From: Cellulophaga sp. L1A9
Lineage (GTDB): Bacteria > Bacteroidota > Bacteroidia > Flavobacteriales > Flavobacteriaceae
Assembly (NCBI RefSeq): GCF_009797025.1
Contig: NZ_CP047027.1
Location: 1,116,001 to 1,180,000, forward strand
Direction: 5' to 3'
Length of the DNA stretch: 64,000 bases
The position numbers were made by a program, and so were the translations under genes. Each line of letters begins with the position of its first letter. Positions within the stretch are counted from its first letter, which is position 1. The notes under the pieces are model-generated. The model saw only the letters and a list, made by a program, of their open reading frames with translations. It did no database searches and was not told where the DNA came from. This document shows, one piece after another, positions 74 through 23,351 of the stretch.

Positions 74-1570
74 ATGGAAATAATAAAAAATAACCCATAC
101 CGTATTGCTGGTATTCTGTCAAATGCTTCTGAAAGAGAATTACAAAAGCAAAAAACCAAAATTAGAGCATTCTCAAAGGTTGGAAAAGAAATTAAATCTG
201 ATTTTGATTTTGATGTTCTTGGAAATATAACAAGAACAGAAGATTTAATTGATAAGGCATTTTCAAATGTGGAACAAAACCAAGATAAAGTAAACTTCTC
301 CTTGTTTTGGTTTTTAAATGCAAGTCCTTTTGATAATACGGCATTTGAATATCTTAAGAATGGTAATGACGAAAAAGCAGATGAAATATGGAAAAAAGTA
401 ACCCAAAATAAAGAAGTAAATTCTAAAAATTTCTCGGCCTTCAGTAATTTAGGAACTTATAAATTATTGAGCGAATCTCAAGATGATATAAAGGACGGTA
501 TTAACGCTAAAGTAAAACTGATTGAATCAGATTTTTTTAAAAACTTTGTCCATACCGTTGCTGATGAAACTTTTACAATTGATAGTGAAAAACAAATAGA
601 AAAATTGATTGATGAATTACTAATGCAATTCAAAAACCAATATTCAAGCACGGAAACATTACAATTATTTAGTAATTGTAATGATTTAATACAAAAATAT
701 CTTTCAAAAAAATTTACAGAAGAACCAATCCACAATATTGAGAGCCTAATTGAAAGCACAAAAAACAAAAGAAAGAAAAACAAAAGTGATGCATATCAAT
801 ACGGATTAAATTTAGCTAATAAATGTAAAGCTGAATTAATTCTTCTACACTCTTTAATAGGAAGGACAGACTTAAAATATAAAACAGTTGCGGACCAGTT
901 AGCAAATGAAATAATGCAATGTGGAATTGATTATTTCAATAAAAGTAAAGAAGATAATGCAAGTAACAATTATCTCCAATCAGCGCAAAAGTTAACTAAA
1001 ATTGCAGATAGCATAGCGGTTGGTAAGTTAACTAAAGAAAGAGCCCAAGACAGTCTAGCTACACTTGAAGAAATGAAAGACAGGGAACTTTCACAAGCGA
1101 TTGATGTATTGGAATCTATAAAATCTGCTTATGAAAACAATGCTGTGCAATTAATGGCACAAGTAAAAAAACAAGAGGCTTCTATGGGGTATGGTCAATC
1201 AATAAATTGGTCTAAAGTAACAGAAATGATTATGAATTCTATTGATTGGGATAAAGCAACAGAATTAATTATCGATGTAATACCAAAAGAGAATATCGTA
1301 AAAATCAAGAACAGTCAAAATACTTCTAAAATCAACGATTACAAAAAATTAGTTGACTTTATACTCGGAAAATTGGGTTATTCACACAAAATCAAAGTTA
1401 AATATCTACAATATTGGGAATCTACAAGAATAGCAACAACTGCTACTAGAACATCATCTACAAGAACAGCATCTACTCCACAATCAACAGAAAATGAAGG
1501 AATACCAGATTGGTTGAAATGGGTTGGTGGAATAATATTATTTATCCTTTTACTTAAAGCTTGTAATTAA
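74..1570 (+). CDS. J-like, tail-anchored protein of an Hsp70 cluster (unknown function)
   Basis: No named family recognised. The first ~110 residues begin NPYRIAGILSNASERE followed by a basic helix and a tryptophan-rich stretch (FSLFWFLNASPFD). This pattern resembles the degenerate DnaJ-like N-termini found beside divergent Hsp70 genes, but there is no HPD tripeptide, so Hsp70 stimulation is an inference. The middle is helical and Lys/Glu-rich. A Ser/Thr-rich linker near residues 455-475 leads to a single C-terminal hydrophobic helix (about 482-496), suggesting a tail anchor. I prefer the ATG at 74; the frame is open back to a TTG at 41. It is the first gene of a + strand operon and ends 7 bp before the next gene. 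Confidence 0.7.
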   Translation: MEIIKNNPYRIAGILSNASERELQKQKTKIRAFSKVGKEIKSDFDFDVLGNITRTEDLIDKAFSNVEQNQDKVNFSLFWFLNASPFDNTAFEYLKNGNDEKADEIWKKVTQNKEVNSKNFSAFSNLGTYKLLSESQDDIKDGINAKVKLIESDFFKNFVHTVADETFTIDSEKQIEKLIDELLMQFKNQYSSTETLQLFSNCNDLIQKYLSKKFTEEPIHNIESLIESTKNKRKKNKSDAYQYGLNLANKCKAELILLHSLIGRTDLKYKTVADQLANEIMQCGIDYFNKSKEDNASNNYLQSAQKLTKIADSIAVGKLTKERAQDSLATLEEMKDRELSQAIDVLESIKSAYENNAVQLMAQVKKQEASMGYGQSINWSKVTEMIMNSIDWDKATELIIDVIPKENIVKIKNSQNTSKINDYKKLVDFILGKLGYSHKIKVKYLQYWESTRIATTATRTSSTRTASTPQSTENEGIPDWLKWVGGIILFILLLKACN

Positions 1571-1577
1571 ATTAATT

Positions 1578-2519
1578 ATGAAAAAAACACTACTAATAAT
1601 TGCTCTTGTAGCAGTATCTAATCTTTTTGCGCAACAGCAACAAGATTCTATTTTGGTAAAAGAAATACCAATAATAAAAAACAATGTCTTTCAACAAAGA
1701 CAAGAAATAAATGCTTTGACAAAAAAGCTGAACAACCAACGATACCTTTTTAACCAACATAAAAAGGGCTTGGAAACATTAAATCTCAAATCCCAAAAAC
1801 AAGAATATATCATTGACAGTTTAAATCAACTGATAAAAAACAACAGTCAAAATATTGTAACCAATTCAACAGAATTAGGAACAAAAATTAAACAAACAGA
1901 CGAAAATGCAAATTCCAAAATTTCAGAATTAGATAGTAGTTTAGGCAAAAATCGATTGTATTGGATAATTGCAACTTTAACAACACTTTTATTAGGTGGT
2001 TTGGTTTATTGGCTATTAGGCAAACGTATTCAATCGAGTAAAACAGATGTTGAAACTCAAATAAAGAATACCAAAACCGCTTTAGAAGAAAAAAGCGTGA
2101 AATTAGACAACAAATTGGTAGAAGTCTTAGAAACACAATTGAAATTAAAACTAGAAGAAACCAAAGTACAACCTACAACTTCAAACGAAAAAGCAGACCA
2201 TTCTCTAGCGTTAAAAGTAGCAGATGAAGTTATAAGGATTCAAAAGAATTTAAGCCGAATGGACGAGAGCACAAAAGGATTAAAACAATTAGGTTCTTCT
2301 GTTCAACGCATTCAAGACAACTTTGCATCAAACGGTTATGAATTAGTTGAAATGCTAGGTAAAGAATATAATGAAGGGATGAAAGTAACTGCAAACTTCA
2401 CACCTAACGAAGATTTAGAAACAGGGAAACAAATTATATCAAGAATAATAAAACCACAAGTAAACTTCAAAGGCGAAATGATACAAGCTGCACAAATAGA
2501 AGTTAGCGTAGGCGAATAA
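1578..2519 (+). CDS. Membrane-anchored coiled-coil protein of the Hsp70 cluster
   Basis: A 313-residue protein of unknown function. It starts with a signal-peptide-like segment (MKKTLLIIALVAVSNLFAQ). Residues ~30-120 are predicted coiled coil rich in Gln, Asn and Lys. A transmembrane helix lies at about 128-147 (LYWIIATLTTLLLGGLVYWL), and a second charged coiled coil plus a small C-terminal domain follow. If the signal peptide is cleaved, the first coiled coil is periplasmic and the second part cytoplasmic, where the Hsp70 and kinase-AAA products should be. That would make it a plausible envelope sensor or scaffold (inference). Spacing is 7 bp upstream and 10 bp downstream. Confidence 0.7.
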   Translation: MKKTLLIIALVAVSNLFAQQQQDSILVKEIPIIKNNVFQQRQEINALTKKLNNQRYLFNQHKKGLETLNLKSQKQEYIIDSLNQLIKNNSQNIVTNSTELGTKIKQTDENANSKISELDSSLGKNRLYWIIATLTTLLLGGLVYWLLGKRIQSSKTDVETQIKNTKTALEEKSVKLDNKLVEVLETQLKLKLEETKVQPTTSNEKADHSLALKVADEVIRIQKNLSRMDESTKGLKQLGSSVQRIQDNFASNGYELVEMLGKEYNEGMKVTANFTPNEDLETGKQIISRIIKPQVNFKGEMIQAAQIEVSVGE

Positions 2520-2529
2520 AAAAAATCAA

Positions 2530-5055
2530 ATGGCAAGAACAAAAATTGACTACGGAATTGATTTAGGAACTACTAATTCCGCAATTTCAAGAATGGAAAA
2601 TGGAGAAGCAACCATAAAAAAAACTGACACCTTAAAAGACACCATGCCTTCTTCAGTTTACATAAACAAAAAGAAAGCGATACAAGTTGGCGATAGTGCT
2701 TACAATGCTCTAAAACGAGATAAGCTAAAAGCTATGAAAACTTGGAATGATTCTGATTCCAATTCATATATAGAATTTAAAAGAACAATGGGAAGTGATA
2801 AATCCTATTCAAGTTCAAATCTTGGAAGAGATTTAACATCTGAAGAATTATCGGCAGAAGTTTTAAAAACTTTAAAATCTTTTGTAAAAGATGAAAATGT
2901 TAATTCTATCGTCATTACAGTTCCAGCGGCTTTTAAAAACAATCAAAAAGAAGCAACAAGAGAAGCTGCTAAATTAGCTGGCTTTGACCATATAGAGTTA
3001 TTACAAGAACCCGTTGCAGCATCAATGGCCTATGGATTAGATTCCGATAAAAAGGATGGATTTTGGCTCGTTTTTGATTTTGGTGGGGGAACTTTTGATG
3101 CAGCACTTTTAAAAGTTGAGGAAGGTATTATGAAAGTGATTGATACCGAAGGAGATAATTATCTTGGAGGTAAAAATTTAGATTTTGCTATTGTTGATGA
3201 AATAATATTGCCATACATACAAGAAAATTTTGCAATTGATTCCATATTAGGAGATGATTCTAAAAAACAAATTTTAAGAAATGCAATGAAATTTTATGCA
3301 GAAGAAACCAAAATAAAACTTTCATTCAATGATACACACAATATACTTTCAGATTTAGGAGACATTCCCGGAGAAGATGATGAAGGAGAAGAATTTGAAT
3401 TAGATATAACTGTTACACAAACTGACATATCAAATGCCCTTTCACCTGTTTTTCAAAAAGCAATTGATGTTAGCAAAAACCTTTTAGAAAGAAATAATTT
3501 AAAAGGCTCGTCATTAGATTCGCTAATACTTGTTGGTGGCCCAACTTTTTCGCCTGTTTTGCGAAAAATGTTAGAAACACAAATTTGTAAACCTGATACA
3601 AGTGCAGACCCAATGACAGTAGTTTCAAAAGGTGCAGCATTGTATGCTTCAACAGTTGACGTTTCAGAAGAAGTAAGAGAACAAACAAGAGATAAAACTA
3701 AAATTCAGTTAGATATAGCGAATGAATCTTCTACAGTAGAAACAGAAGAGTATGTGCCAATCAAAATTTTGGCTGATAAAACAGAAGGCGAAATCCCTGA
3801 AAAAGTATTTGCAGAAGTTACTAGAGGAGATAAAGCTTGGTCTAGTGGAAAAATTGAAATAAACACTATTGGCGAAATTGTCGAAATTCAGCTAAATGAA
3901 GGAAAAACGAATATTTTTGATGTTGTTTTATATGACGACAAAGGAGATATTTTAGAAAGTGAACCTTCATCTTTTAGTGTAATACAAGGCTCTAAAATTG
4001 GAAGCGCTACGCTTCCTTACAATTTTGGAATAGAATTGAAAGATAAGATAACGGGAAAAGTTAGATTCAAAACTATTAAAGGTTTAGAAAAAAATCAATC
4101 CATACCCGCAGTAGGAACATTAAATGGATTGAAAACACAAAATCAAATTCGTCCAGGAATGGACTCCGATTTCATAAAAATCCCAGTCTATGAAGGTGAG
4201 TATGCATCAGAAGGCACAAGGGCTATTTATAATGAACACGTAACAGATATTTTGATTAGCGGAGCAGATTTACCGACACTATTACCAGAAAATCAAGATG
4301 TTGATTTAACCGTAAATATTGATAGGTCTGAAAAAATAACGGTTACGGCATATTTCCCTTACTTAGACTATACAGCAGAAATAGAGGTGGATAGCACAAA
4401 AACTTCAATTGAAACTTCTTGGTTAGCCAATGAAATAAGAAAAGCTAAAGGAAGTGTTACAGAATTAAAACAAGATGGTAATTCTAATGATATAAAACTT
4501 CAAAAAATTGAATCTGAATTAGAGCAACTTGACAAATCGTTTGAAAATAACAAAAATGATGTTGATGGCAAACAAGAAATTTTAACCAATTTAAGAAAGA
4601 CACTAAAAACAATTGATGAATTGTACGAAACCACTGAATGGCCAAAATTAGAAGAACAATTGAAAGAAGACTTTTACAAGTTAGAAGAAGCCAATACTGA
4701 TTTAGGAAATAATAAATCCACTCAATTGGTTCTTCAATTACGATCACAATTGGATGAAATTATTAAAGCTAAAGATGTAAAAATTGGAAACGTTCTTTTG
4801 GAAGAAATTAATAGTCTCTTCTTTGATCTCACATATATTTATCAACTTATTGGGTTATTACAAAGCTTCAATGATAATTTTGGAAGCTACCATTGGAAAG
4901 ATTCAAATAGAGCTAGACAATTAATAAATAGTGGACTTAGTAAAATATCTGCAAATCCTGATGCAGAAGAATTAAGACAAATATTAATTTCATTATTTAA
5001 TTTATTGCCACAAGATGAAGTGCCTAGTGGAGATAACAATGTTTTAGTAGGTTAA
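2530..5055 (+). CDS. Divergent Hsp70 (DnaK-like) chaperone with long C-terminal extension
   Basis: Hsp70-superfamily ATPase of 841 residues, against about 640 for canonical DnaK. The nucleotide-binding domain is well preserved: phosphate-1 loop GIDLGTTNS (9-17), the EPVAASMAYG region (160-169), phosphate-2 VFDFGGGTFD (181-190) and adenosine loop ILVGGPTF (333-340). After residue ~380 the similarity to the DnaK substrate-binding domain fades. Residues ~400-620 look beta-rich and the last ~200 residues are helical. It is not the housekeeping dnaK: it has no grpE or dnaJ beside it and sits between a membrane coiled-coil gene and a kinase-AAA gene. Substrate specificity cannot be read from the sequence. 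Confidence 0.9.
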   Translation: MARTKIDYGIDLGTTNSAISRMENGEATIKKTDTLKDTMPSSVYINKKKAIQVGDSAYNALKRDKLKAMKTWNDSDSNSYIEFKRTMGSDKSYSSSNLGRDLTSEELSAEVLKTLKSFVKDENVNSIVITVPAAFKNNQKEATREAAKLAGFDHIELLQEPVAASMAYGLDSDKKDGFWLVFDFGGGTFDAALLKVEEGIMKVIDTEGDNYLGGKNLDFAIVDEIILPYIQENFAIDSILGDDSKKQILRNAMKFYAEETKIKLSFNDTHNILSDLGDIPGEDDEGEEFELDITVTQTDISNALSPVFQKAIDVSKNLLERNNLKGSSLDSLILVGGPTFSPVLRKMLETQICKPDTSADPMTVVSKGAALYASTVDVSEEVREQTRDKTKIQLDIANESSTVETEEYVPIKILADKTEGEIPEKVFAEVTRGDKAWSSGKIEINTIGEIVEIQLNEGKTNIFDVVLYDDKGDILESEPSSFSVIQGSKIGSATLPYNFGIELKDKITGKVRFKTIKGLEKNQSIPAVGTLNGLKTQNQIRPGMDSDFIKIPVYEGEYASEGTRAIYNEHVTDILISGADLPTLLPENQDVDLTVNIDRSEKITVTAYFPYLDYTAEIEVDSTKTSIETSWLANEIRKAKGSVTELKQDGNSNDIKLQKIESELEQLDKSFENNKNDVDGKQEILTNLRKTLKTIDELYETTEWPKLEEQLKEDFYKLEEANTDLGNNKSTQLVLQLRSQLDEIIKAKDVKIGNVLLEEINSLFFDLTYIYQLIGLLQSFNDNFGSYHWKDSNRARQLINSGLSKISANPDAEELRQILISLFNLLPQDEVPSGDNNVLVG

Positions 5056-5060
5056 TACAA

Positions 5061-6833
5061 ATGAATAAACCAAATTACATATTATCCAAAGGGCAACGTA
5101 TTGCAAATAAATACACAGTCTCCTTTTTTTTAAAAAAAGGAAATTACGCAGAAACCTATCGTGTAAAAGACCAAGGTGGCAAAACAAAATTATTAAAACT
5201 GTTTGTTTATTCTAAATTAGACAGAACACAATTTAATGACAATGGTGACATTTTAGAAATTGAGATTTTAAAACAAATTAAACATCCTAATTTGGTCAAG
5301 TATTGTGATAAAGGCGAATTGCTTTTAGAAAAGCAAAAATATGCTTTTGTAATTCTCGACTTTATTAGTGGCGAAACGCTAGCCGATAAAATGAAGCGAG
5401 AGCAAACATTCAATCCTTATGGTGCAAAAGATATAGTTTCAGGCGTCTTAAATGGTTTAAACTATTTGCATAATCTCGAGAAGCCAATAATTCATAATGA
5501 TATTACGAACCTAAATATTATGACTGACTTATCTGGTAAAGTGGAAATTCCAAAGATCATTGATTTTGGTTATGCGAGATATTTAAGCCAGTCAAACAAA
5601 GATTTTTTAAAAGATGGTTTAAACCCATTTTATCAAGCCAACGAAAATTTCAACAAAGTATTTTCTGTGCAAAGTGATGTGTTTTCAGTTGGTGTTTTAT
5701 ATTATCATTTACTTTTTGGTTTGCCACCTTGGTTTGTGGAAATTTCAAAATACAAATCAGATAAAATAAAACTAGAAGATGCTGTTTTAGAAGAGCGTAA
5801 GAAACCTTTAAAGTTTGCAAAAAATATAGATGAACAAATACAAAATATCATAAGTAAGGCATTACAACCAAATACTGAAAATCGCTTTAAAAATATAAAA
5901 GAATTTATCCAAGCGATTAATGGAGAATTAGAAATTAAGCAAATTGCTAGTTCAGAAGAGCCAATCATGCCAAAATTAAAAAATATAAAGAGCGGTCAAG
6001 GGTTCAAAGCCATTGCAGGAATGCAAGAACTCAAAGAAACCATACAATTAGATGTAATTGATGCGTTAAATGATAAAGAAAAGTATGCAGAATATGGGTT
6101 AACTATTCCTAACGGAATGTTACTTTATGGGCCACCAGGTTGTGGAAAAACATTTTTTGCGGAACGAATGGCAGAGGAAATTGGTTTTAATTTTTATCAA
6201 ATAAAACCTTCTGATATACAAAGTAAATTTGTAAATCAATCGCAAGAAAATATTAAGAATCTCTTTGATGAAGCTCGTGAAAATGCACCAAGCATCATTT
6301 TTATAGACGAATTAGATGCTTTAGTTCCTAATCGTGATAATTCAAGCGTAAATCACATGAATACGAGTGCTGTAAATGAATTTTTAGCACAAATGAATAA
6401 TTGCGGTGATGACGGTGTCTTTATTATTGGAGCGACAAACAGGCCTAATTCGATTGATCCAGCAATTTTAAGAGCAGGTCGTTTAGATAAAGTAATTTAT
6501 TTACCACCACCAGATTTTGAAGCTCGTGAATTAATGTTCAAACTCTATTTAGAAAAACGACCTAGAGAGGTTGGATTAGATTATTCAGTTTTAGCCAAAG
6601 CAACAGAAAACTATGTCTCAAGTGACATAAAGTTCCTTTGTGATGAAGCTTCAAGAAAAGCTTTAAAAATTAAATCTAGAATTTCAAAAGAAATACTACT
6701 AGAAACAATTAATAGCAATAGACCTTCAATCCCACTAAAAGAATTAAATAGCTACGTAGCTATTAAAACTAAAATGGAAGGTTTAGCGAAAAACACTAAC
6801 GACCGACCTACAATTGGTTTTAAAAACAATTAA
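5061..6833 (+). CDS. Ser/Thr protein kinase - AAA+ ATPase fusion
   Basis: A two-domain protein of 590 residues. The N-terminal ~290 residues are a eukaryotic-type kinase: glycine-rich loop LKKGNYAETYRV (24-35), probable ATP lysine K46, helix-C glutamate around 66-68, catalytic loop HNDITNLN (145-152) and DFG (168-170). The usual catalytic-loop lysine of HRDLKPxN is a threonine here, so activity is likely but not certain. The C-terminal half is a Cdc48/FtsH-type AAA+ module: Walker A GPPGCGKT (357-364), Walker B IIFIDE (412-417), sensor ATN (458-460), and arginines in ILRAGRLD that match the arginine-finger region. There is no protease domain. It starts 5 bp after the Hsp70 gene, suggesting joint action in substrate handling plus signalling (inference). 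Confidence 0.9.
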   Translation: MNKPNYILSKGQRIANKYTVSFFLKKGNYAETYRVKDQGGKTKLLKLFVYSKLDRTQFNDNGDILEIEILKQIKHPNLVKYCDKGELLLEKQKYAFVILDFISGETLADKMKREQTFNPYGAKDIVSGVLNGLNYLHNLEKPIIHNDITNLNIMTDLSGKVEIPKIIDFGYARYLSQSNKDFLKDGLNPFYQANENFNKVFSVQSDVFSVGVLYYHLLFGLPPWFVEISKYKSDKIKLEDAVLEERKKPLKFAKNIDEQIQNIISKALQPNTENRFKNIKEFIQAINGELEIKQIASSEEPIMPKLKNIKSGQGFKAIAGMQELKETIQLDVIDALNDKEKYAEYGLTIPNGMLLYGPPGCGKTFFAERMAEEIGFNFYQIKPSDIQSKFVNQSQENIKNLFDEARENAPSIIFIDELDALVPNRDNSSVNHMNTSAVNEFLAQMNNCGDDGVFIIGATNRPNSIDPAILRAGRLDKVIYLPPPDFEARELMFKLYLEKRPREVGLDYSVLAKATENYVSSDIKFLCDEASRKALKIKSRISKEILLETINSNRPSIPLKELNSYVAIKTKMEGLAKNTNDRPTIGFKNN

Positions 6834-6834
6834 T

Positions 6835-7374
6835 ATGGAAACAATAAATTTCAACAAACTTTTACTTAAAACGGCGTTTTCATGTATGGCCTGTGACGGA
6901 GTTATTGACAAGCGTGAAGTAAAATTGATTCAACAATTACATAAAGAAAATAAAATTTTTGGTGAGATTGATATTAACTCTGAATTTGATACTTTATTAC
7001 TTGCTATAAATAAGGATAATCAACATTTTCTAAAAAATTACTTCAATGAACTTAAATCATCTGAGCTATCAGAATCCAATGAATTAAAATTAATTGAAGT
7101 TGCAATTGCGACCATTAAAGCAGATGATATAATTGAATATAGCGAAATCAAGTTTTTCAAAATTATCCGTTCTAAATTAAAAATTGACAATGAATCAATT
7201 CTTGAAAAACATCCTGACTTTGAAGATTACCTAGAACAAGACATTATTAGTGATTCATATTTGAAACGAATCCAAGATGATTTTTTTGACACTCATACTT
7301 CAAATGAATTTGAATTATTTAATAAAATAGATGACACCATAGATATTATTACATCTAAAAATTCAAAAAAATAA
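6835..7374 (+). CDS. TerB-like domain protein
   Basis: A 179-residue cytoplasmic protein with no signal peptide or membrane helix. It has two TerB-type half-motifs, CMACDGVIDKREVKLI near the N-terminus and IKADDIIEYSEIKFF in the middle, matching the A-x-x-D-G/D-x-I-x-x-x-E pattern of tellurite-resistance TerB domains. TerB domains are metal-binding helical modules common in stress and phage-defence gene sets. The ATG at 6835 lies one base after the stop of the kinase-AAA gene; an upstream in-frame codon inside that gene is possible but less likely. It is the last gene of the compact Hsp70 operon. Confidence 0.7.
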   Translation: METINFNKLLLKTAFSCMACDGVIDKREVKLIQQLHKENKIFGEIDINSEFDTLLLAINKDNQHFLKNYFNELKSSELSESNELKLIEVAIATIKADDIIEYSEIKFFKIIRSKLKIDNESILEKHPDFEDYLEQDIISDSYLKRIQDDFFDTHTSNEFELFNKIDDTIDIITSKNSKK

Positions 7375-8088: not shown

Positions 8089-9669
8089 ATGACAGCACAA
8101 AAAGCACAGCTAGAACAGCAACTCTGGAATATTGCCAACACCCTACGTGGCAAGATGGATGCCGATGATTTTAGAGACTATATATTAGGTTTCATTTTCT
8201 ACAAATACCTGAGTAAGAAAATGGAGTTATATGCCAATATTATTTTAAAACCAGATCAGTTAACTTTTGATGATATAGAAGGTCATGAAAGTGAAGAAAT
8301 TCTTATCAAAGAAATAAAAAGTGCGGCTTTAGATAAATTAGGGTACTTCTTAAAACCCTCAGAATTGTTTAGCGAGCTTGCTCGCAGAGGAAATGCTGGC
8401 GGTAAAAGTCAGTTTATATTGGGTGATCTTGCCAAGGTATTGAGCCATATTGAGCAAAGTACTATGGGTACCGAAAGCGAAGACGATTTTGGTAACCTTT
8501 TTGAAGATTTAGATTTAACAAGCTCTAAACTGGGGAAATCTGAGAATGATAAAAATGAGCTGATTGTAAAAGTATTGACCCATTTAGATGAGATAGATTT
8601 TGACCTAGAAAATACGGAGAGTGATGTTTTGGGCGATGCCTATGAATACCTTATTGGGCAATTTGCTAGTGGTGCAGGTAAAAAAGCAGGCGAGTTTTAT
8701 ACCCCACAACAAGTATCAAACATTTTAGCACAACTGGTAACCGTAGGGAAAGACAAACTTAAATCTGTTTATGACCCTACCTGTGGTTCTGGTTCTTTAT
8801 TATTACGTGTAGCCAAACAAGTAAAAGAGGTTAGTGCTTTTTATGGGCAAGAAATGAATCCTACTACCTATAACTTGTGTAGAATGAACATGATTATGCA
8901 TGATGTGCATTACAAAAAGTTTGATATTAAAAACGAAGATACCCTAGAACGCCCTCAACATTTAGACGAGCGTTTTGAAGCTATTGTAGCCAACCCACCT
9001 TTTTCTGCAAAGTGGAGCGCTAGCCCACTGTTTATGACCGATGATCGTTTTTCTAACTACGGAAAACTAGCGCCGAGTAGTAAGGCCGATTTTGCTTTTG
9101 TACAACACATGGTGCACCAATTGGCAGATAATGGTACTATGGCATTGGTATTACCACACGGGGTTTTATTCCGTGGTGCTGCAGAAGGGCATATACGTAA
9201 GTACTTAATTAAAGATTGTAATTATTTAGATGCGGTGATTGGCTTACCGGCAAACATATTTTATGGCACCAGTATCCCTACGTGTATTTTGGTGTTGAAA
9301 AAGCAAAGAACAAATAAAAAGGAAGTCTTATTTATTGATGCCAGCCAACATTTTGAAAAAGTAAAAACACAAAATGTATTGCGTGAAGAAGATATAGCGA
9401 AATTACTTACCACGTATAAAGACTATACAAACGGACAGTTTGATACTGCTAATATAGAAAAGTACAGCCATGTAGCACAGCTATCTGAAATTGCTGAAAA
9501 CGATTACAACCTAAATATACCAAGGTATGTAGATACGTTTGAAGAAGAAGAACCTATTGATCTTGAAACGGTAAGCATAGAACTGCAAGCAATTGCAGAG
9601 CAAAGCCAAGCCACAGATGCCACCATCGCCAGTTTCTGTAAAGAATTGGGCATAAACACTCCGTTTTAA
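8089..9669 (+). CDS. hsdM: Type I restriction-modification methyltransferase subunit (HsdM)
   Basis: N6-adenine DNA methyltransferase subunit of 526 residues, a normal length. The N-terminal helical HsdM domain covers about 1-150. The SAM-binding motif is DPTCGSGS (229-236) and the catalytic motif is NPPF (302-305). It forms the modification complex with HsdS and the restriction complex when HsdR joins. Its stop codon overlaps the hsdS start by one base (TAATG), indicating translational coupling. A TATCTTTA sequence near 8050-8057 could be the -7 box of its promoter, but the match is weak. Confidence 0.95.
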   Translation: MTAQKAQLEQQLWNIANTLRGKMDADDFRDYILGFIFYKYLSKKMELYANIILKPDQLTFDDIEGHESEEILIKEIKSAALDKLGYFLKPSELFSELARRGNAGGKSQFILGDLAKVLSHIEQSTMGTESEDDFGNLFEDLDLTSSKLGKSENDKNELIVKVLTHLDEIDFDLENTESDVLGDAYEYLIGQFASGAGKKAGEFYTPQQVSNILAQLVTVGKDKLKSVYDPTCGSGSLLLRVAKQVKEVSAFYGQEMNPTTYNLCRMNMIMHDVHYKKFDIKNEDTLERPQHLDERFEAIVANPPFSAKWSASPLFMTDDRFSNYGKLAPSSKADFAFVQHMVHQLADNGTMALVLPHGVLFRGAAEGHIRKYLIKDCNYLDAVIGLPANIFYGTSIPTCILVLKKQRTNKKEVLFIDASQHFEKVKTQNVLREEDIAKLLTTYKDYTNGQFDTANIEKYSHVAQLSEIAENDYNLNIPRYVDTFEEEEPIDLETVSIELQAIAEQSQATDATIASFCKELGINTPF

Positions 9670-11018
9670 TGGCAGCGCATACAGACAAACCAACGCCGTC
9701 ATTGCGAGGAGGAACGACGAAGCAATCTGTTGAAACCAAACAGTCACTGCGCATGGAACGCAGTGAAGCGAAGCACTCTGTTGATGCTACACGCACGCTT
9801 GTACCAAAACTCCGTTTCAAAGAGTTTGATGGGGATATAGTTAAATACTTATTCAGTGATATATTTCTTTTTTCTACAGGAAAAAATATAAAACAAAATG
9901 AAGCGTCACCTGAATTTGAAACTCCCTGTGTCCGATATGGCGAATTATATCATATGTATAATGAGGTGATTAATGATGTAATTAATAAAACAAATCTTGA
10001 TAAATCAGAACTACTGTTTAGCAAAGGTGATGAAATATTACTTCCTTCAGCAGGTGAAGACCCATTAGATATTGGTTCGGCTTCTGCCTTAACTCTAGAA
10101 AATATTGCTATAGGAAGAACAATAAACGTTTTAAGACCTTTAAACAAGAATATTTATTCTCAAATCTACGCTTCTTATTATATTAATCAAAAATTAAGAA
10201 AAAAGATATCAACTTTAGCTAAAGGTTCAAGTATTAGTAATGTATATAATTCTGACTTAAAGACATTAAAAATCAATCTTCCTTCCCTCCCCGAACAACA
10301 AAAAATAGCTTCTTTTTTAAGTGCGGTAGATGAAAAAATACAACAACTCACCAAAAAGAAAGCCCTTTTAGAGCAATACAAAAAAGGGGTCATGCAACAA
10401 TTGTTTTCTGGTAAACTAAGGTTTAAAGATGAAAATGGGAAGGCGTATCCGGATTGGGAGGAGAAACGATTGGGGGAAATAGCTTCCTTTTTAAAAGGAA
10501 AAGGAATCTCAAAAGCAGACCTTTCATTGAATGGCAAGCTAAAGTGTATAAGATATGGCGAATTATATACTGTTTACGGAGAAACTATAGATAAGGTTTT
10601 CTCTAAAACGAATGTCGCAGAAAAGGAATTAGTAATGAGTGAAAAGGGTGATGTTATTATTCCTGCGTCTGGAGAAACTCAAATTGATATCGCAACGGCT
10701 TCCTGTGTTATAAATGCCAATATTGCACTTGGAGGGGATTTAAATATAATACGAAGTGCAAATAATGGCATTTTCTTAGCTTACTATTTAAATAGTGCTT
10801 TGAAATTTGATATAGCTCGCTTATCACAAGGTGTTTCTGTTGTGCATCTATATTCAAGCCAACTCAAAACATTAAAAATAGGTGTTCCACAAATTGAAGA
10901 ACAACAAAAAATCGCTACTTACTTATCTAATATCGATACCAAAATAGAAAGCGTAAACAACCAAATAACCAAAACCCAAAGCTTTAAAAAAGGGCTGTTG
11001 CAGGGAATGTTTGTTTAG
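9669..11018 (+). CDS. hsdS: Type I restriction specificity subunit (HsdS) with repeat-derived N-terminus
   Basis: DNA-recognition subunit, 449 residues. Target-recognition domain 1 is ~55-206, a conserved helical spacer is ~207-258 (LPEQQKIASFL...), TRD2 is ~262-415 and the C-terminal spacer is ~416-449 (IEEQQKIATYL...). The two TRDs are clearly homologous: VRYGELY (88-94) and IRYGELY (294-300); SAGEDPLDIGSAS and ASGETQIDIATAS. Residues ~10-39 are not HsdS sequence. They are the translation of two REP-like repeat units that read through in frame, so the ancestral protein probably began near VPKLRFKEF (45-53). The start overlaps the hsdM stop by one base. No ATG occurs between the repeats and residue 45 in this frame except the one encoding Met29. 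Confidence 0.93.
   Translation: MAAHTDKPTPSLRGGTTKQSVETKQSLRMERSEAKHSVDATRTLVPKLRFKEFDGDIVKYLFSDIFLFSTGKNIKQNEASPEFETPCVRYGELYHMYNEVINDVINKTNLDKSELLFSKGDEILLPSAGEDPLDIGSASALTLENIAIGRTINVLRPLNKNIYSQIYASYYINQKLRKKISTLAKGSSISNVYNSDLKTLKINLPSLPEQQKIASFLSAVDEKIQQLTKKKALLEQYKKGVMQQLFSGKLRFKDENGKAYPDWEEKRLGEIASFLKGKGISKADLSLNGKLKCIRYGELYTVYGETIDKVFSKTNVAEKELVMSEKGDVIIPASGETQIDIATASCVINANIALGGDLNIIRSANNGIFLAYYLNSALKFDIARLSQGVSVVHLYSSQLKTLKIGVPQIEEQQKIATYLSNIDTKIESVNNQITKTQSFKKGLLQGMFV
9698..9784 (+). repeat. REP-like repeat pair inside hsdS
   Basis: Two tandem same-orientation units. The first starts GTCATTGCGAGGAGGAACGA and ends AAGCAATCTGTTGA; the second starts GTCACTGCGCATGGAACGC and ends AAGCACTCTGTTGA. 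They belong to the same family as the copies at 18012-18057 and 18346-18431. The insertion keeps the reading frame of hsdS open and contributes about 30 residues. Confidence 0.85.
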
Positions 11019-11036
11019 AAAACATGAAAGACTATT

Positions 11037-11176
11037 GCGCATGCTTTTTGTATTATATTTTGTTTTGCGCACGTTTTTTTAGTCTAGCGCACGTTTTTAA
11101 TTAAAATTTTTGCGCACGTTTTTTTTTAAAAAATAATAATGCGCACGTTTTTTTTATTTTGCGCACGCTTTTTTAG
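11037..11176 (+). repeat. Six direct repeats GCGCAyGyTTTTT between hsdS and fic
   Basis: Copies begin at 11037, 11067, 11087, 11112, 11141 and 11161, giving spacings of 30, 20, 25, 29 and 20 bp. Each is GCGCACG or GCGCATG followed by C/T and a T-tract of 5 to 9 bases. The array fills the hsdS-fic gap, and the last copy lies where the -33 element of the predicted fic promoter should be. An operator array or a curved-DNA element is likely. Spacers are A/T-only filler rather than unique 30-mers, so it is not CRISPR. Confidence 0.85.
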
Positions 11177-11185
11177 TTATATTTG
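11158..11185 (+). promoter_or_regulatory. Candidate Bacteroidota promoter for fic-hsdR
   Basis: TATATTTG (11178-11185) matches the -7 consensus TAnnTTTG. TTTG at 11158-11161 could be the -33 element with a 16-bp spacer, slightly short of the usual ~19. The fic ATG is 25 bp downstream. The promoter overlaps the last GCGCACG repeat. Confidence 0.45.
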
Positions 11186-11210
11186 AGTATAACGTATAGA
11201 ATACTAAACC

Positions 11211-12752
11211 ATGGAAATAGAGATACCTTCAATTAAAACATCCGTATTCCAAGGTAACACCACACCTGAAAACGGGAAAATAGTGGGTTATGGTGCCATT
11301 ATAGAAAAATTGAAGTTACCCATACCATTTCCAAATACATTATCTCTAATTACTGAAAAAAGTAAAAAATACAATACCGATTATTGGAAAGTTTTTCCAG
11401 CTTCATACCAACCAGAAGAAACCTTATACAAACAACTAGTATTTGCAATTAAATATGAGGGCATTAACCTTTTAGTGTTTAAATCGTTATTTAATACCAT
11501 TTCTAAAAATGAAATAGAGACCATTTTAAATATAGAGCCAATGGGCCAATACAGCCGAAAAATTTGGTTTTTATATGAATGGCTGCAACAAGAGGAAATT
11601 AATGTAGCGGTTGATTTAAAAAAACGCAAATACATTCCTCTATTAGATACTAAAATACAATACGCAATAAAAGGAGAGGAATCCGTAAGACAAAAAATTA
11701 TAAACAACCTTCCCGGAACAAAAGACTTTTGCCCATTAATATTTAAAACCAAAAAATTAGAAAATCATATTAATGCTAATGTATCTGGCAAAAAAAATGC
11801 ATTGCTAAATAGTATCCATAAAGATGTCTTACAAAGAGCATCTTCTTTTTTATTGTTAAAAGATTCTAAAGCTTCATTTACCATAGAAGGCGAAAATCCG
11901 GGAAATAATAGGGCAATGCGTTGGGGAAAGGCCATTGGTCAGGCAGGTCAAAAAACATTAAGCATTGAAGAATTAATTCGCTTACAGCAAATAGTAATAG
12001 AAAACAGTAGGTTTATAGCTATGGGGCTACGAAAAAAAGGAGGATTTGTTGGTGAACATGACCGCGTAACAGGCGAACCTATTCCGGACCATATTTCCGC
12101 CAAAGAAGATACTATTGAACAATTATTAAATGGATTAATTGCTACCAATGAAGCATTGCAGGACGATACCTATGATGCCGTGTTAGCAGCAGCTACCATA
12201 GCATTTGGCTTTGTTTTTATTCACCCCTTTGTTGATGGGAATGGCCGTTTACATCGGTATATTATTCATCATATTTTGGCAAAAAAGGCCTTTACACAAC
12301 AAGGTATTATTTTTCCTGTGTCGTCATCCATACTGGACCATATTGATGATTATAAAAACGTTTTAGAATCGTATTCACATCCCTTATTGGACCATATTGA
12401 GTGGAATGAAACCGAAGATCATAATGTAGAGGTTACAAATGACACTATAGATCTTTACCGTTACTTTGATGCCACTAAACAAGCGGAATTTTTATATGAT
12501 TGTGTGGAAGATACTTTAAAACGTGTTATTCCGGAAGAAGTAACCTATTTGCAAAACTATGATGATTTTAAAAAATATATAGATAACCATTTTGAAATGC
12601 CGGATAAAATGGTTGCTATTCTGGTTCGTTTTTTAGAGCAAAATGATGGGGTATTATCAAAAAGAGCTTTAAAAAAGGAATTTTCAGCGTTAAAAGAGAA
12701 AGAAATTGAGGAAATCGAAACGAATTATAATAGCATTTTTTTAGAAGCATAA
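11211..12752 (+). CDS. Fic family protein within type I RM locus
   Basis: Fic-domain protein of 513 residues, probably an AMP- or other NMP-transferase acting on a hydroxyl side chain of an unknown target. The catalytic motif HPFVDGNGRLHR is intact (338-349). A likely inhibitory motif S-x-x-x-E-G (SFTIEG, 222-227) lies N-terminal to the Fic core. This is the class II arrangement, in which the glutamate blocks ATP binding, so the enzyme is probably autoinhibited at rest. The N-terminal ~200 residues and C-terminal ~100 residues are unassigned. The gene abuts hsdR with no gap (TAA then ATG), so the two are co-translated. Fic genes inside hsd loci are common, but their role is unsettled. Confidence 0.92.
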   Translation: MEIEIPSIKTSVFQGNTTPENGKIVGYGAIIEKLKLPIPFPNTLSLITEKSKKYNTDYWKVFPASYQPEETLYKQLVFAIKYEGINLLVFKSLFNTISKNEIETILNIEPMGQYSRKIWFLYEWLQQEEINVAVDLKKRKYIPLLDTKIQYAIKGEESVRQKIINNLPGTKDFCPLIFKTKKLENHINANVSGKKNALLNSIHKDVLQRASSFLLLKDSKASFTIEGENPGNNRAMRWGKAIGQAGQKTLSIEELIRLQQIVIENSRFIAMGLRKKGGFVGEHDRVTGEPIPDHISAKEDTIEQLLNGLIATNEALQDDTYDAVLAAATIAFGFVFIHPFVDGNGRLHRYIIHHILAKKAFTQQGIIFPVSSSILDHIDDYKNVLESYSHPLLDHIEWNETEDHNVEVTNDTIDLYRYFDATKQAEFLYDCVEDTLKRVIPEEVTYLQNYDDFKKYIDNHFEMPDKMVAILVRFLEQNDGVLSKRALKKEFSALKEKEIEEIETNYNSIFLEA

Positions 12753-15656
12753 ATGAGCCATCAATCCGAAACCATACTAGAAAACAACCTAATCCAACAA
12801 TTGGTTGGTTTGGGTTACACCGCTGTAAAAGTACCAGATGCTACTGCACTTGTTGCTAATTTAAAAAGTCAGCTTGAGGCATTTAATAAAACCTCCTATT
12901 CTAATAAGGAATTTGATGGGATCTTAAATCATTTAGAAAAAGGTAAGGTGTTTGAAAAAGCCAAAACCTTACGGGATAGGTTTAGTTTTATCAGAGAAAA
13001 TGGCGAGGTGTGTTATGTGCGCTTTTTTGATTCAGAAAATTCGAATAACAACTTGTTTCAAGTTACCAACCAAATAAGCTTAGAGGGTTCTTATAAAAAC
13101 AGGTATGATGTAACGCTGTTAGTAAATGGCTTGCCTTTGGTGCAATTAGAATTAAAGCGTAGAGGTATTGAAATTAAAGAAGCTTTTAATCAAATAAACA
13201 GGTACCAATTACATAGTTTCTGGAGTACTCATGGCTTGTTTCAATATGTTCAATTATTTGTAATTAGTAATGGTGGTAACACAAAATATTTGGCAAATAA
13301 TGAGTTACAGTCGGTTTTACAGACCTTCTTTTGGGCAGACAAAAACAATAAACGTATTACGGAGCTGCCTGAATTTGCAGATGCATTTTTAAATATTGAT
13401 CATTTAGGTAAAATGATTGCGCAATACGTGGTCATTAACGAAACCTACAAAAACATGATGGTCTTGCGCCCGTATCAATACTACGCTACTGAGGCTATCA
13501 TTCATCAAGTAAAGAACACTACTGAAAACGGCTATATTTGGCACACTACAGGTTCAGGAAAAACATTAACCTCATTTAAAGCAAGCCAAATTTTAATGGA
13601 TTTGCCAGAGGTGTACAAAGTAGTTTTTGTGGTAGATCGTAAAGATCTAGATTACCAAACCATGAAAGAGTTTAATGCTTTTAAAGAGGGCAGTGTAGAT
13701 ACTACAGAGAACACCACGAGTTTGGTGCATCAATTTCTAGGGAAATTTAAAGATAAAAAAGGCGTTCGTAAAGATTCCGATTTAATCATTACCACCATTC
13801 AAAAATTAAACAATGCTATTTCTGGGCATAACAAAACCAAATTAGCGCCTTTAAAAAACGAACGTTTCGTATTTATTTTTGACGAATGTCACCGTAGTCA
13901 GTTTGGTGACACCCATGCAAGAATTACAGAATTTTTTAGCAACAGCCAATTATTTGGTTTTACAGGGACCCCAATTTTTGCAGATAATGCTTCTAAAAAC
14001 GACTTAGGGAAGCGTACCACCAAAGATTTATTTGGCAATTGCCTTCATAAATATGTGATAACAGATGCTATCCGCGATGAAAATGTATTGCGCTTTGCCA
14101 TAGAGTATATTGGTAAATACAAAAACAAGAGTAAGACTTTTATAGATATAGAAGTAGAAGATATTGATAAGAAAGAAGTGCTAGATTCCCCAAAGCGATT
14201 AACTAAAATTGCAGATTACATTATAGCACATCACGATCAAAAAACTTTCAGCAAGGCATATTCTGCTTTGTTTGCTGTAAGTAGCATTGATAATCTTATC
14301 AAGTATTATGATATTTTTCAGCAGAAAAAAGAAGCTGGCGAACATAATTTGCGCATAGCTACCATATTTACCTATGGCACCAATGAAGATAGTACTGACG
14401 CTCAAGATTTCTTGCCTGATGATGCAGAGCTCTCTATGGCAGCAGAACCCCAAGAAACGTACAAACGAAGCCATTCAAGAGATAAGCTAGAAAAGTATAT
14501 TGGTGATTACAATGCCATGTACAGCACCAGCTACACTACAAAAGACCAACAACAATTTGAAAACTATTTTAAAAACATTAGCAAGCGTTTAAAAGAACGT
14601 GAAAAAATAACGTTTAATGATGAAAAAGACCGTTTAGATATTGTTATTGTAGTGAACATGATGCTTACCGGTTTTGATGCTAAAAAGGTAAACACATTGT
14701 ATGTTGATAAAAATTTAAAGCAGCATGGCTTAATACAAGCTTTCTCTAGAACTAATAGAATTTTAGGAGACCAAAAATCTCAAGGAAATATTTTGTGTTT
14801 TAGAAATCTAAAAAAGGCTACTGACGATGCCATTACCTTATTTTCAAACAAAGATGCTATTGAAGTGGTAACCATGCCAGATTATGAGGTAATTGCAGAA
14901 AAGTTTGATGAAGCGCTAAAAAACCTACGAGAAATAACACCCACTTACCAAAGCGTTAATGACTTAGCTACGGAAAATGATGAAGCTGCTTTTGTACAAA
15001 CATTCAGAAGACTTTTAAGAAACATGAATGTATTACAGTCCTACTCAGATTTTGATTGGGATGATTTACCAATAAGTGAGCAAGAATTTACAGGTTACCA
15101 AGGAAAATACAGAGATTTATATGATAAAGTAAGGCGGGCTAACGCAAAACAAAAAACATCAATCTTAGCAGATATAGATTTTGAGTTAGAGTTGATACAC
15201 AGCGATACTATAAATGTAGCTTATATTTTTATGCTATTAGCGAAACTTAAAAATGCAAAGTCGTCTGAAGCAAAGGCACAGAAAAAAGCAATACTAGATC
15301 TTTTGGGGGGCGATACCATGTTGCGTAGCAAACGTGAACTTATCGAAAAATTTATAGATGAAAATCTACCAAAAATTGATGACACAGATACTATTCAAGA
15401 TGAATTTGAAACCTATTGGCAAGAGCAAAAAGTACTAGCACTGGGTAAACTTTGTGACGAAGAGAATTTAGATAAAGCACAGTTTAAAGCCTTAATTGAC
15501 ACGTATATCTATAGTGGACAAGAACCTATAAAAGATGACGTTTTTAAATGCTTAGACAATAGACCAAGTATTTTAAAAGCACGTGAAATAGGTGAACGCA
15601 TTTTATCTAAAATGAAAGAGTTTGTACAAGTTTTTATAGAAGGTATGACGGGGTAA
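12753..15656 (+). CDS. hsdR: Type I restriction endonuclease subunit (HsdR)
   Basis: ATP-dependent translocase/nuclease subunit, 967 residues. The nuclease core is Asp119 in RYDVTLLV and Glu133-x-Lys135 in LVQLELKRRG. SF2 helicase motifs are Walker A TTGSGKT (265-271), DECH (377-380) and FTGTP (403-407), with the second RecA-like domain carrying MLTGFDAKKVNTLYVDK. A C-terminal helical region for binding the HsdM/HsdS core follows. All key residues are present, so the system looks intact. It starts directly after the fic stop codon, although hsdM and hsdS lie upstream of the fic promoter, so restriction may be expressed separately from modification. Confidence 0.95.
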   Translation: MSHQSETILENNLIQQLVGLGYTAVKVPDATALVANLKSQLEAFNKTSYSNKEFDGILNHLEKGKVFEKAKTLRDRFSFIRENGEVCYVRFFDSENSNNNLFQVTNQISLEGSYKNRYDVTLLVNGLPLVQLELKRRGIEIKEAFNQINRYQLHSFWSTHGLFQYVQLFVISNGGNTKYLANNELQSVLQTFFWADKNNKRITELPEFADAFLNIDHLGKMIAQYVVINETYKNMMVLRPYQYYATEAIIHQVKNTTENGYIWHTTGSGKTLTSFKASQILMDLPEVYKVVFVVDRKDLDYQTMKEFNAFKEGSVDTTENTTSLVHQFLGKFKDKKGVRKDSDLIITTIQKLNNAISGHNKTKLAPLKNERFVFIFDECHRSQFGDTHARITEFFSNSQLFGFTGTPIFADNASKNDLGKRTTKDLFGNCLHKYVITDAIRDENVLRFAIEYIGKYKNKSKTFIDIEVEDIDKKEVLDSPKRLTKIADYIIAHHDQKTFSKAYSALFAVSSIDNLIKYYDIFQQKKEAGEHNLRIATIFTYGTNEDSTDAQDFLPDDAELSMAAEPQETYKRSHSRDKLEKYIGDYNAMYSTSYTTKDQQQFENYFKNISKRLKEREKITFNDEKDRLDIVIVVNMMLTGFDAKKVNTLYVDKNLKQHGLIQAFSRTNRILGDQKSQGNILCFRNLKKATDDAITLFSNKDAIEVVTMPDYEVIAEKFDEALKNLREITPTYQSVNDLATENDEAAFVQTFRRLLRNMNVLQSYSDFDWDDLPISEQEFTGYQGKYRDLYDKVRRANAKQKTSILADIDFELELIHSDTINVAYIFMLLAKLKNAKSSEAKAQKKAILDLLGGDTMLRSKRELIEKFIDENLPKIDDTDTIQDEFETYWQEQKVLALGKLCDEENLDKAQFKALIDTYIYSGQEPIKDDVFKCLDNRPSILKAREIGERILSKMKEFVQVFIEGMTG

Positions 15657-21206: not shown

Positions 21207-21467
21207 AATTGTTTTAATTGGTTTTGTTTGTTTTGATTTTTCTTTGGTTAAAAAAATAGTAGCATACCTATTCCTCACGTTTTTCTTCCGTGAGAACATT
21301 TAAATCATGCCATGAAGAGAAAAAACGAAAACAAAACCGAGTTAGTATAAAATCTACAGGATAAAATGATAGCGCTTAAGAATGCTGAGAAAGTTAAGAA
21401 TGATAATTATTTATTTCCAAGTTAAAATAGGCTCCTTTTGTGTAAACTCTTTTTGTATTTTCGAAGG

Positions 21468-23342
21468 ATGAATAACAAGTTTCTACTACTTTCCTTTATT
21501 ACCCTCTTTCTCGCTTGCTATTCATCTGTTTTTGCCATTGATTTTTTAAAATTTGAAAATAAAAACAGTACTACTCCTCCTATTGAGAATACTATTGATT
21601 CCCTGAAGCAAATCAAAAAAAAAATAAGCGCTTTTGTCAAAAAGAAAGAATATTCAAACGCTATTATTTATTCTAAAAAATTGCTCCACGAAGCGAAGCT
21701 AAAGTCCGACTCCAGCACAATTGATAATGCCTATTTCCGCCAAGCCTTTTATTTTGACAAATTAAACCAGGTAGATTCTTCCTATTTTTATTATGATAAG
21801 TCTTACACGTATAATTTAGCCTTAAAAGATACCGTCGTTGCAGGAGAACGTCTACTGGGTATGGCAAACATTCAAAAAAGCTTAGGTGATTATACGGGTG
21901 CAATGATCACAGCCATTGACGGATTAAAATATTTAGAAAATACTGAGGAGCTAGAATCTACGATTGGACTTTACCAAACCATTGCCGTGGCTCAAAAAGA
22001 ATTGGGACACCCCCAAGAGGCCCTCCGTTGGAATACAAAAGCTTTTAACATCCTAAAAAATAACCCAAAGGCAGAAATTTTACCCTCTAGTATTCATATC
22101 ATTACTATTACCAGAGCTAATATCCTAGCCGAAAAAAAAGAATACAGCGCAAGCATTCATATTTTAGATAGCATTGCCCAAGAAACAACGGGTAAAAACC
22201 TCTTTGAATTTTCTAGAGCTATTTGCAATATGGGCCATTTTAAATGGCTAGAAGATGCCAATAACCCCGAAAGTGAAACGCTGCTTTTAGAATCTTTAAG
22301 AATCCGGACTTCTTTGAATACCGCTAGCGGCTTGTTCTCTAGCTACATTCATTTAGCCGAGTTTTATTTTGATACTAAAAAAGCTAAAGCTTTGCGGTAT
22401 GCGCAACAAGCCTATACGTACTCTGAAAAATTAAATAATCCGGTAGCTAGTCTAGAAGCTCTAGATCTAATTCTGCCTTTAAAAAGAGATTTGCGCCAAG
22501 CTATTTCTAACGAAGCAATTACCTATTCCCAACTACAAAATCAACTAGAAAAATCTAGACAAACTATTCGCGCCATCTATGCGGCCACCAAATATGATAA
22601 CGATGCCTTAGAGAAGGAAAATCTTAAGCTGCTAACGCAAGTAGCAATCAAAGAAAAACAAAAAATTTTGGCGCTGGCTGCTGCCGTATTTCTTTTAGGT
22701 GTTATTGGTTTTGTGATCTATTACAAAAACCATCAAAAACAAAAAGAGCAGCTAGAAATGTCATACAAAACGGAGCTACGCCTATCTAAAAAATTACATG
22801 ATGAATTAGGAAATGATATTTTCTATTTAATGACGCAGGTACAACAAGACACACCCGCTCCTACCGATACTAAAAATGCTCTCATTTTAAATGGATTAGA
22901 TAGTATTTACCAAAGAGTAAGAGATATTTCTAAAGAATTTACAGCGATTGATACCGGGAAAAATTTTGGAAAAGAATTTTTTGCACTTCTAAATTCCTAC
23001 AGTTCTGCCAGCACAAAATTAATCACCAAAGAATTACCCCTGAGTTTTTGGGATGATATAGCCCCTAAAACAAAAATTGAACTCTATAGAGTATTGCAAG
23101 AACTACTCGTAAATATGAAAAAACATAGTGAAGCTACTTTTGTAGCAATTACCTGTGTAAAAAATGCCAAAGAGATATTAATAAAGTATGTAGATAATGG
23201 GGTAGGATTTGATATAAATGAAAAAATTTCAGGAAATGGACTCAAGAATGTGGAAAACCGCATAGCTAGTATAAAAGGAAGTATTAATTTCGAATCCAAA
23301 CCAAAGGAAGGGGTTACCGTAACCCTGACGTTTGCTATTTAA
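21468..23342 (+). CDS. TPR-containing sensor histidine kinase
   Basis: A 624-residue sensor. It has a signal sequence (NNKFLLLSFITLFLACYSSV), a periplasmic region of TPR-like helices to about residue 370, a TM helix at about 401-419 (ILALAAAVFLLGVIGFVIYY) and a cytoplasmic kinase core. The phospho-acceptor is in KKLHDELGND (His ~444). The ATPase shows N-box ELLVNMKKHSE, G1 DNGVGFD and G2 GNGLKNVENRIASIKG. This is the NarX/LytS-like layout common in Bacteroidota. The start is taken at ATG 21468. It is followed after 9 bp by its response regulator. Confidence 0.92.
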   Translation: MNNKFLLLSFITLFLACYSSVFAIDFLKFENKNSTTPPIENTIDSLKQIKKKISAFVKKKEYSNAIIYSKKLLHEAKLKSDSSTIDNAYFRQAFYFDKLNQVDSSYFYYDKSYTYNLALKDTVVAGERLLGMANIQKSLGDYTGAMITAIDGLKYLENTEELESTIGLYQTIAVAQKELGHPQEALRWNTKAFNILKNNPKAEILPSSIHIITITRANILAEKKEYSASIHILDSIAQETTGKNLFEFSRAICNMGHFKWLEDANNPESETLLLESLRIRTSLNTASGLFSSYIHLAEFYFDTKKAKALRYAQQAYTYSEKLNNPVASLEALDLILPLKRDLRQAISNEAITYSQLQNQLEKSRQTIRAIYAATKYDNDALEKENLKLLTQVAIKEKQKILALAAAVFLLGVIGFVIYYKNHQKQKEQLEMSYKTELRLSKKLHDELGNDIFYLMTQVQQDTPAPTDTKNALILNGLDSIYQRVRDISKEFTAIDTGKNFGKEFFALLNSYSSASTKLITKELPLSFWDDIAPKTKIELYRVLQELLVNMKKHSEATFVAITCVKNAKEILIKYVDNGVGFDINEKISGNGLKNVENRIASIKGSINFESKPKEGVTVTLTFAI

Positions 23343-23351
23343 TAAAAGGAT

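Follow-up and report, generated by a model that had tools for sequence, protein, structure and literature searches.

What does an operon do that sets a private Hsp70 beside a kinase-fused AAA+ ATPase, a TerB-domain protein and two putative membrane partners? The operon in question occupies positions 74-7374 of a 64,000-nucleotide stretch of Cellulophaga sp. L1A9 (contig NZ_CP047027.1, positions 1,116,001 to 1,180,000; hereafter the window). It comprises five co-directional genes on the plus strand, all with ATG starts and separated by 7, 10, 5 and 1 bp; the initial annotation had given the coordinates and the 1-10 bp gaps correctly. We propose that these genes encode a mobile, envelope-linked chaperone/unfoldase conflict system built around a private Hsp70 cycle, whose targets would most likely be phages or other invaders, and we give this reading a probability of roughly 0.57. 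It is based on the recurrence of the unit, its rare and patchy distribution, a GrpE-like profile and fold, conserved catalytic residues, the exchange of cassettes at one chromosomal site, an excess of defence families in the flanks, mobile neighbours and known chaperone precedents. A search of the literature, which did not extend to subscription papers and outside preprints, gave no description of this five-gene set.

The five genes form one conserved unit that is rare and patchy across Bacteroidota families. Scanning genome contigs gave 23 loci in 15 named genera, mostly of the Flavobacteriaceae type, together with records of Chryseobacterium, Epilithonimonas, Lunatimonas, Saprospiraceae and Cryomorphaceae. 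Fifteen of these loci (given below as L numbers) hold all five genes in the same order, including L024, with a second Hsp70 interposed, and L025, with the J-like gene split. Among the remaining eight, no TerB gene was found in L030, L032 and L034; L027, L031, L035 and L036, like L034, are cut by contig ends; and in L016 a transposase gene (Pfam rve) covers the beginning of the Hsp70 gene, and J-like and coiled-coil genes are absent. Clustering was performed on 35 loci, namely 22 of the 23 (L020 was dropped, being on the same contig as L046), 11 further loci, one plasmid and the window. The Hsp70 was present in all 35, the kinase-AAA protein in 32, TerB in 28, and the J-like and coiled-coil proteins in 27 each, while clusters outside the core set and its accessories were each restricted to at most three loci. 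The loci without the kinase-AAA gene (L043, L044 and L045) are those of distant Hsp70s, and in L044 the Hsp70 gene is adjoined by those of TerB and DUF6804. Gene order is kept down to about 43% Hsp70 identity (L041); at 36% (L042) the genes are ordered otherwise. The initial annotation had named co-occurrence in at least several genera as support for a system. The unit occurs in no fewer than 15 named genera, and its surroundings vary and are often rich in defence genes. Two signs named beforehand as arguing against a system, genes rarely found together and a constant housekeeping neighbourhood, were looked for and neither was seen.

Co-occurrence was further evaluated at the genome level. The Hsp70 was found in 4 of 149 genomes of the family and in 9 of 395 of the phylum, the own genome included both times. 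Of 395 Bacteroidota genomes sampled in a single draw, nine had the Hsp70 tail, seven the J-like protein and six the coiled coil, and all six genomes with the coiled coil also had both the Hsp70 and the J-like protein. For coiled coil and Hsp70 this corresponds to a hypergeometric probability of 1.7e-11, or 7.3e-10 without the own genome, uncorrected for relatedness. In G499, the remaining genome with the J-like protein, the sequence breaks off at a contig edge and no Hsp70 match was obtained, and in G357 the coiled-coil match lies on a different contig.

The Hsp70 (Pfam HSP70, 1.1e-59) has kept its nucleotide-binding apparatus, since at the positions of the phosphate 1, phosphate 2 and adenosine motifs only one or two of 33 rows deviate, gaps included. 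It had been described as divergent with a long extra C-terminal region. Both the divergence and an extra tail were found, and in addition a block of about 140 amino acids without any match separates the ATPase from the peptide-binding part. The stretch resembling the peptide-binding domain is collinear with DnaK and is not significant alone (7.9 bits, i-Evalue 6.9); the further C-terminal tail lies beyond it. At L024:12076-14691 and at L035:3260-5887 the operon contains another, diverged member of this Hsp70 family.

The coiled-coil protein had been called signal-anchored, and it indeed has a hydrophobic segment and an N-terminal leader, recognised by eye; its GrpE-like end had been overlooked. 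This C-terminus comprises two helices and a six-stranded beta domain and is collinear with GrpE. Because a plain sequence search gave no GrpE match in Pfam or the PDB, we term the domain GrpE-like rather than GrpE. With this predicted domain the operon would hold most of a membrane-tethered Hsp70 cycle, its J-like protein being without the HPD motif. Just 5′ of the distant Hsp70s of L044 and L045 lies a short conserved protein (L044:2041-2388, L045:1982-2269) that looks GrpE-like by eye, without Pfam support.

Comparison of the J-like family with 27 DnaJ J-domains by hhalign gave an E value of 5.5e-4 and a score of 24.8 over 24 columns only, covering helices I-II; 100 column shuffles scored at most 17.1 and the reversed profile 12.7. 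The hydrophobic tail of the predicted J-like, tail-anchored protein was recovered, whereas the HPD motif was absent from all 26 locus sequences and from the first 120 residues of all 120 listed homologues. If the protein descends from a J-domain, canonical stimulation of Hsp70 is therefore probably impossible. The C-termini of the 120 listed homologues are divided between a CFI-box-like motif, as defined in this analysis (60), a hydrophobic tail (54) and neither (6), which shows that tail anchoring is not universal. In L025 (2485-3338) the gene is split, and its detached tail, which ends in a hydrophobic stretch, is followed by a protein with the CFI-box-like motif, as if the two C-termini were interchangeable anchors.

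The kinase and the AAA+ domain reside, as announced, on one protein (Pkinase 2.5e-35, AAA 2.6e-39). Over 30 aligned rows, the kinase residues K46, D147 and D168 are conserved in 29 (with one gap), 26 and 28, respectively. All 30 share Walker A, Walker B and R474, 29 have R471, and the pore residue is aromatic (F, Y or W) throughout. Judged from sequence, such a pattern would be expected if the AAA+ part unfolds proteins by threading and the kinase is mostly active. No Pfam family exceeded its curated cut-off for the J-like, coiled-coil and TerB proteins. The last of these had no direct match to Pfam TerB; a homologue in L013/L044, 35% identical to it (E 5.8e-16), matches Pfam TerB at 2.3e-6, and D21, G22, E28, D97 and E104 are invariant in 17 sequences. 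By this route the TerB domain of the initial annotation was borne out.

Table 1. Coordinates of the operon, its domains and its downstream neighbours in the window.
Feature	Position	Strand	Evidence
J-like protein, 498 amino acids, hydrophobic C-terminal tail	74..1570	+	open reading frame; weak J-domain profile match, residues 7-30
J-domain-like helix I-II (NPYRIxGI...), no HPD downstream	92..163	+	hhalign
Hydrophobic tail of J-like protein, residues 476-494	1499..1555	+	hydrophobic-segment scan
Coiled-coil membrane protein, GrpE-like C-terminus	1578..2519	+	open reading frame and profile/fold comparison
Transmembrane segment of coiled-coil protein, residues 130-148	1965..2021	+	hydrophobic-segment scan
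GrpE-like domain, two helices and six strands	2190..2516	+	profile and fold comparison
Divergent Hsp70, 841 amino acids	2530..5055	+	Pfam HSP70, PDB DnaK
Hsp70 ATPase domain, nucleotide motifs intact, residues 8-371	2551..3642	+	PDB DnaK 2v7y, E 1.4e-84
Inserted block between ATPase and peptide-binding parts	3643..4065	+	unaligned between two DnaK-matching stretches
Stretch resembling peptide-binding domain, residues 513-650	4066..4479	+	second DnaK stretch, weak
Ser/Thr kinase fused to AAA+ ATPase, 590 amino acids	5061..6833	+	Pfam Pkinase, AAA
Kinase domain, catalytic residues mostly conserved	5136..5891	+	Pfam; K46/D147/D168
AAA+ domain: Walker A/B, arginine fingers, aromatic pore residue	6117..6506	+	Pfam; residue conservation
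TerB-domain protein, 179 amino acids	6835..7374	+	homologue-linked TerB, acidic residues
PDDEXK_4 nuclease	7418		Pfam
Type I restriction-modification locus, Fic gene inside	8089-15656		
Fic-domain protein between specificity and restriction subunits of the type I locus	11211-12752		
HipA_C	16944		profile match

The chromosomal site was compared with that in a complete genome of the same genus (G540). The operon starts 48 bp past a block 92.5% identical in the two genomes, which ends at window position 26; about 20 kb of different content follow in G540 before similarity returns at window position 15409 (97%). The G540 insert encodes TerY (1e-53), PP2C (4.5e-26), two kinases that match STK_OB over its kinase portion (1.4e-56 and 1.2e-49), a PLD protein, DUF4407, DUF6804 (3e-32) and a type I methylase, and its TerY-P-like cassette with DUF6804 lies at L131:10007-16721. 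The different content at one position indicates a variable, defence-type site at which the operon has been exchanged for a TerY-P-like cassette. An SNase gene with a lipoprotein-like leader is located just upstream (L002:17331-17978, window -669 to -22); since G540 keeps it beside another cassette, it belongs in this genus to the site and not to the operon. As to the nuclease, type I restriction-modification and HipBST genes reported downstream, the first two were found, and so was HipA_C, the one part of HipBST examined. A two-gene pair, by eye a histidine kinase and a response regulator, lies near the operon in the window (21438-24020), L022 and L047, and inspection by eye placed the same pair close to DUF6804 in L153-L158, which would suit a shared insertion hotspot.

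The surroundings of the relatives were analyzed with PADLOC at 1e-20. A random 120 of the 156 proteins of at least 150 amino acids encoded within 6 kb of 30 loci, the window left out, matched 75 PADLOC families; a random 120 of 211 proteins taken at one fixed coordinate in 20 genomes, mostly not those of the test loci, matched two, both counts being of families and not of proteins. The matches listed correspond to about ten distinct flank proteins, a number inferred from output that does not print member names: AbiEii twice, AbiEi, two type I methylases, a specificity subunit, PglZ, BrxL, DrmD and Cas9. Defence genes adjoin at least 10 of the 35 loci, not all neighbours having been scanned by name: the window, L015, L016, L022, L109, L030, L036, L039, L041 and L047, with the attribution of L016 and L022 inferred. 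In the plasmid copy (L109) the operon is preceded by a SIR2 gene and directly followed by BREX brxL and pglZ, and other copies are found beside a type I methylase with ThsB, a type I restriction enzyme, a type IIG enzyme and a NACHT protein. Genes of mobile elements comprise an integrase (L016, L040), TraG (L016), a VapE-like gene (L040), a BT4734-like gene (L027) and a resolvase (L017); an integrase match in L025 was below the cut-off.

Accessory genes accompany the core in many relatives. Of the 35 loci, 20 encode an exported lipoprotein or a secreted protein with a bacterial SH3 domain (leaders judged by eye; SH3_3 5.5e-7; lipoprotein 14, SH3 7, both in L037). In 18 loci the gene lies between those of the Hsp70 and the kinase-AAA protein (12 lipoprotein, 6 SH3); it is placed elsewhere in L032 and L037 (lipoprotein) and in L040 (SH3). 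DUF6804, a small membrane protein, is present in 24 loci, usually 3′ of TerB, and its presence in the G540 cassette as well makes it common to two different Ter-type cassettes. Neither a lipoprotein relative nor DUF6804 was found in the window genome, where SH3 was not searched. Two loci have a KilA-N protein just 5′ of the kinase-AAA gene (L015:12065-12895, L035:5826-6710). Another recurring operon, recognised by eye in L153-L157 and L159, combines DUF6804 with a small TerB-looking protein, a protein of about 420 amino acids and a vWA-looking protein, and L153 additionally has a Cas9-like and an SNase gene. An SNase gene is also clustered with DUF6804 and a lipoprotein gene, apart from the operon, at L037:17033-17590.

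The initial annotation had envisaged a chaperone-unfoldase-kinase machine at the membrane, with sensing of misfolded or foreign protein and phage defence as its putative roles. The anatomy is compatible with such a machine, the more so as a GrpE-like domain and, in relatives, exported accessory proteins have now been added to it. Operon unity, the graded domain assignments, the conservation of catalytic residues, the patchy mobile-type occurrence and the defence-type site were computed directly; topology, client transfer, signal and outcome in the following scheme we infer. The coiled-coil protein would span the inner membrane with its GrpE-like exchange domain facing the cytoplasm, and the tail of the J-like protein would tether it to the membrane, where the Hsp70 could be recruited. 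An infection signal at the envelope may be sensed by the periplasmic coiled coil and, in many relatives, also by the exported lipoprotein or SH3 protein. The signal would alter exchange or recruitment, upon which phage proteins, or proteins altered by infection, would be passed by the Hsp70 to the kinase-AAA+ protein; this would thread and unfold its clients, the response being switched on via the kinase and TerB. Tentatively, the operon may stand for a new class of immune machine, in which a self-contained, membrane-tethered Hsp70 cycle and a kinase-gated AAA+ unfoldase capture viral or infection-altered proteins at the inner membrane and dismantle them, with swappable exported sensors and with DUF6804 common to Ter-type cassettes.

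If so, a private Hsp70 cycle with its unfoldase would be an immune or envelope-stress device whose weapon is protein remodelling and not nucleic-acid cutting. This would help to explain the recurrence of TerB, Hsp70 and J-type proteins in conflict loci, and DUF6804 would gain a testable role. One J-like homologue, with 97% identity to the window protein, carries the name Cellulophaga baltica, a marine species with characterised phages according to PMC13288928, and tests may therefore be feasible there.

The same machine might instead be envelope-stress or proteostasis cargo, a mobile fitness module like DjlA-DnaK-GrpE/Rcs with damaged inner-membrane or envelope proteins as clients. Such a role would suit the exported lipoprotein and SH3 partners, the lack of a recognised effector toxin and the 25 of 35 loci without a recognised defence gene (not every neighbour having been scanned by name). 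It also has a precedent in DjlA, which unites a transmembrane helix, a TerB-like and a J domain, and whose activation of Rcs requires DnaK and GrpE (PMC11709261). We regard it as the main rival and nevertheless as less likely, since the operon is rare and patchy, its flanks show an excess of defence families, and at one site it is swapped with a TerY-P-like cassette. A helper function for mobile elements, by exclusion, stabilisation or assembly of conjugation or phage envelope complexes, appears improbable: although the copy on a plasmid (L109) and the integrase, TraG, VapE-like and BT4734-like neighbours, together with a VanY/M15 peptidase (L048), agree with it, no such element was recognised in most loci, the mobile genes seen differ, and relatives of the Hsp70 tail were absent from 50,697 phage records and from the viral contigs scanned. 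A chance run of genes or a constant housekeeping neighbourhood, for which nothing was found in favour, is refuted by the order kept to about 43% Hsp70 identity, the six-of-six co-occurrence (1.7e-11, uncorrected for relatedness) and the lack of constant neighbours.

We then compared the operon with known and predicted systems. Like TerY-P, it is Ter-linked and contains a kinase, and a TerY-P-like cassette, also with DUF6804, occupies the same site in G540; in that cassette, however, no Hsp70, GrpE-like or AAA+ protein was recognised. PMC11090510 names the OB-fold kind of TerY-P as antiphage, and because the G540 kinases align to about residues 2-294 of the 562 of STK_OB only, leaving the OB part uncovered, their cassette may or may not be of that kind. 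The six proteins scanned gave no TerY vWA or PP2C match in PADLOC (for the kinase-AAA protein among the best 25 of 39 rows, so that an STK_OB row may be among the rest). The kinase-AAA protein also scores against PADLOC IetA (3.5e-36), but its AAA domain is fused to a kinase, and no IetS match was found among the six proteins. Type III CoCoNuT systems include CnuD, an Hsp70-like ATPase in predicted defence operons whose Walker A-like motifs are described as degenerate (PMC11090510), whereas the nucleotide motifs of the operon Hsp70 are intact; no McrB-type GTPase exceeded the cut-off in the five proteins. The predicted GTPase conflict systems (GAP1-N2) include HSP70, GrpE and DnaJ, as stated in PMC7159879, and likewise have a dedicated set of this type; here, no GTPase domain was above the cut-off in the five proteins, which have kinase-AAA+ and TerB instead. 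By the sequence features tested, the operon is outside the TerY-P, IetAS, CoCoNuT and GAP1-N2 systems. Chaperones do have a precedent in immunity, since bNACHT25 requires DnaJ (PMC12169576).

By analogy, the nearest working parallel is the DjlA branch. According to PMC11709261, it brings a membrane-anchored J-type protein with a TerB-like domain together with Hsp70 and GrpE at the inner membrane, and the outer-membrane lipoprotein RcsF acts as its sensor, a role that the lipoprotein of the operon relatives might likewise play. DjlA carries TerB fused with a true J domain and works with the housekeeping DnaK and GrpE, whereas the operon distributes these functions over separate proteins: its Hsp70 is private, its GrpE-like protein membrane-bound and its J-like protein without HPD, and a kinase-AAA+ protein is added.

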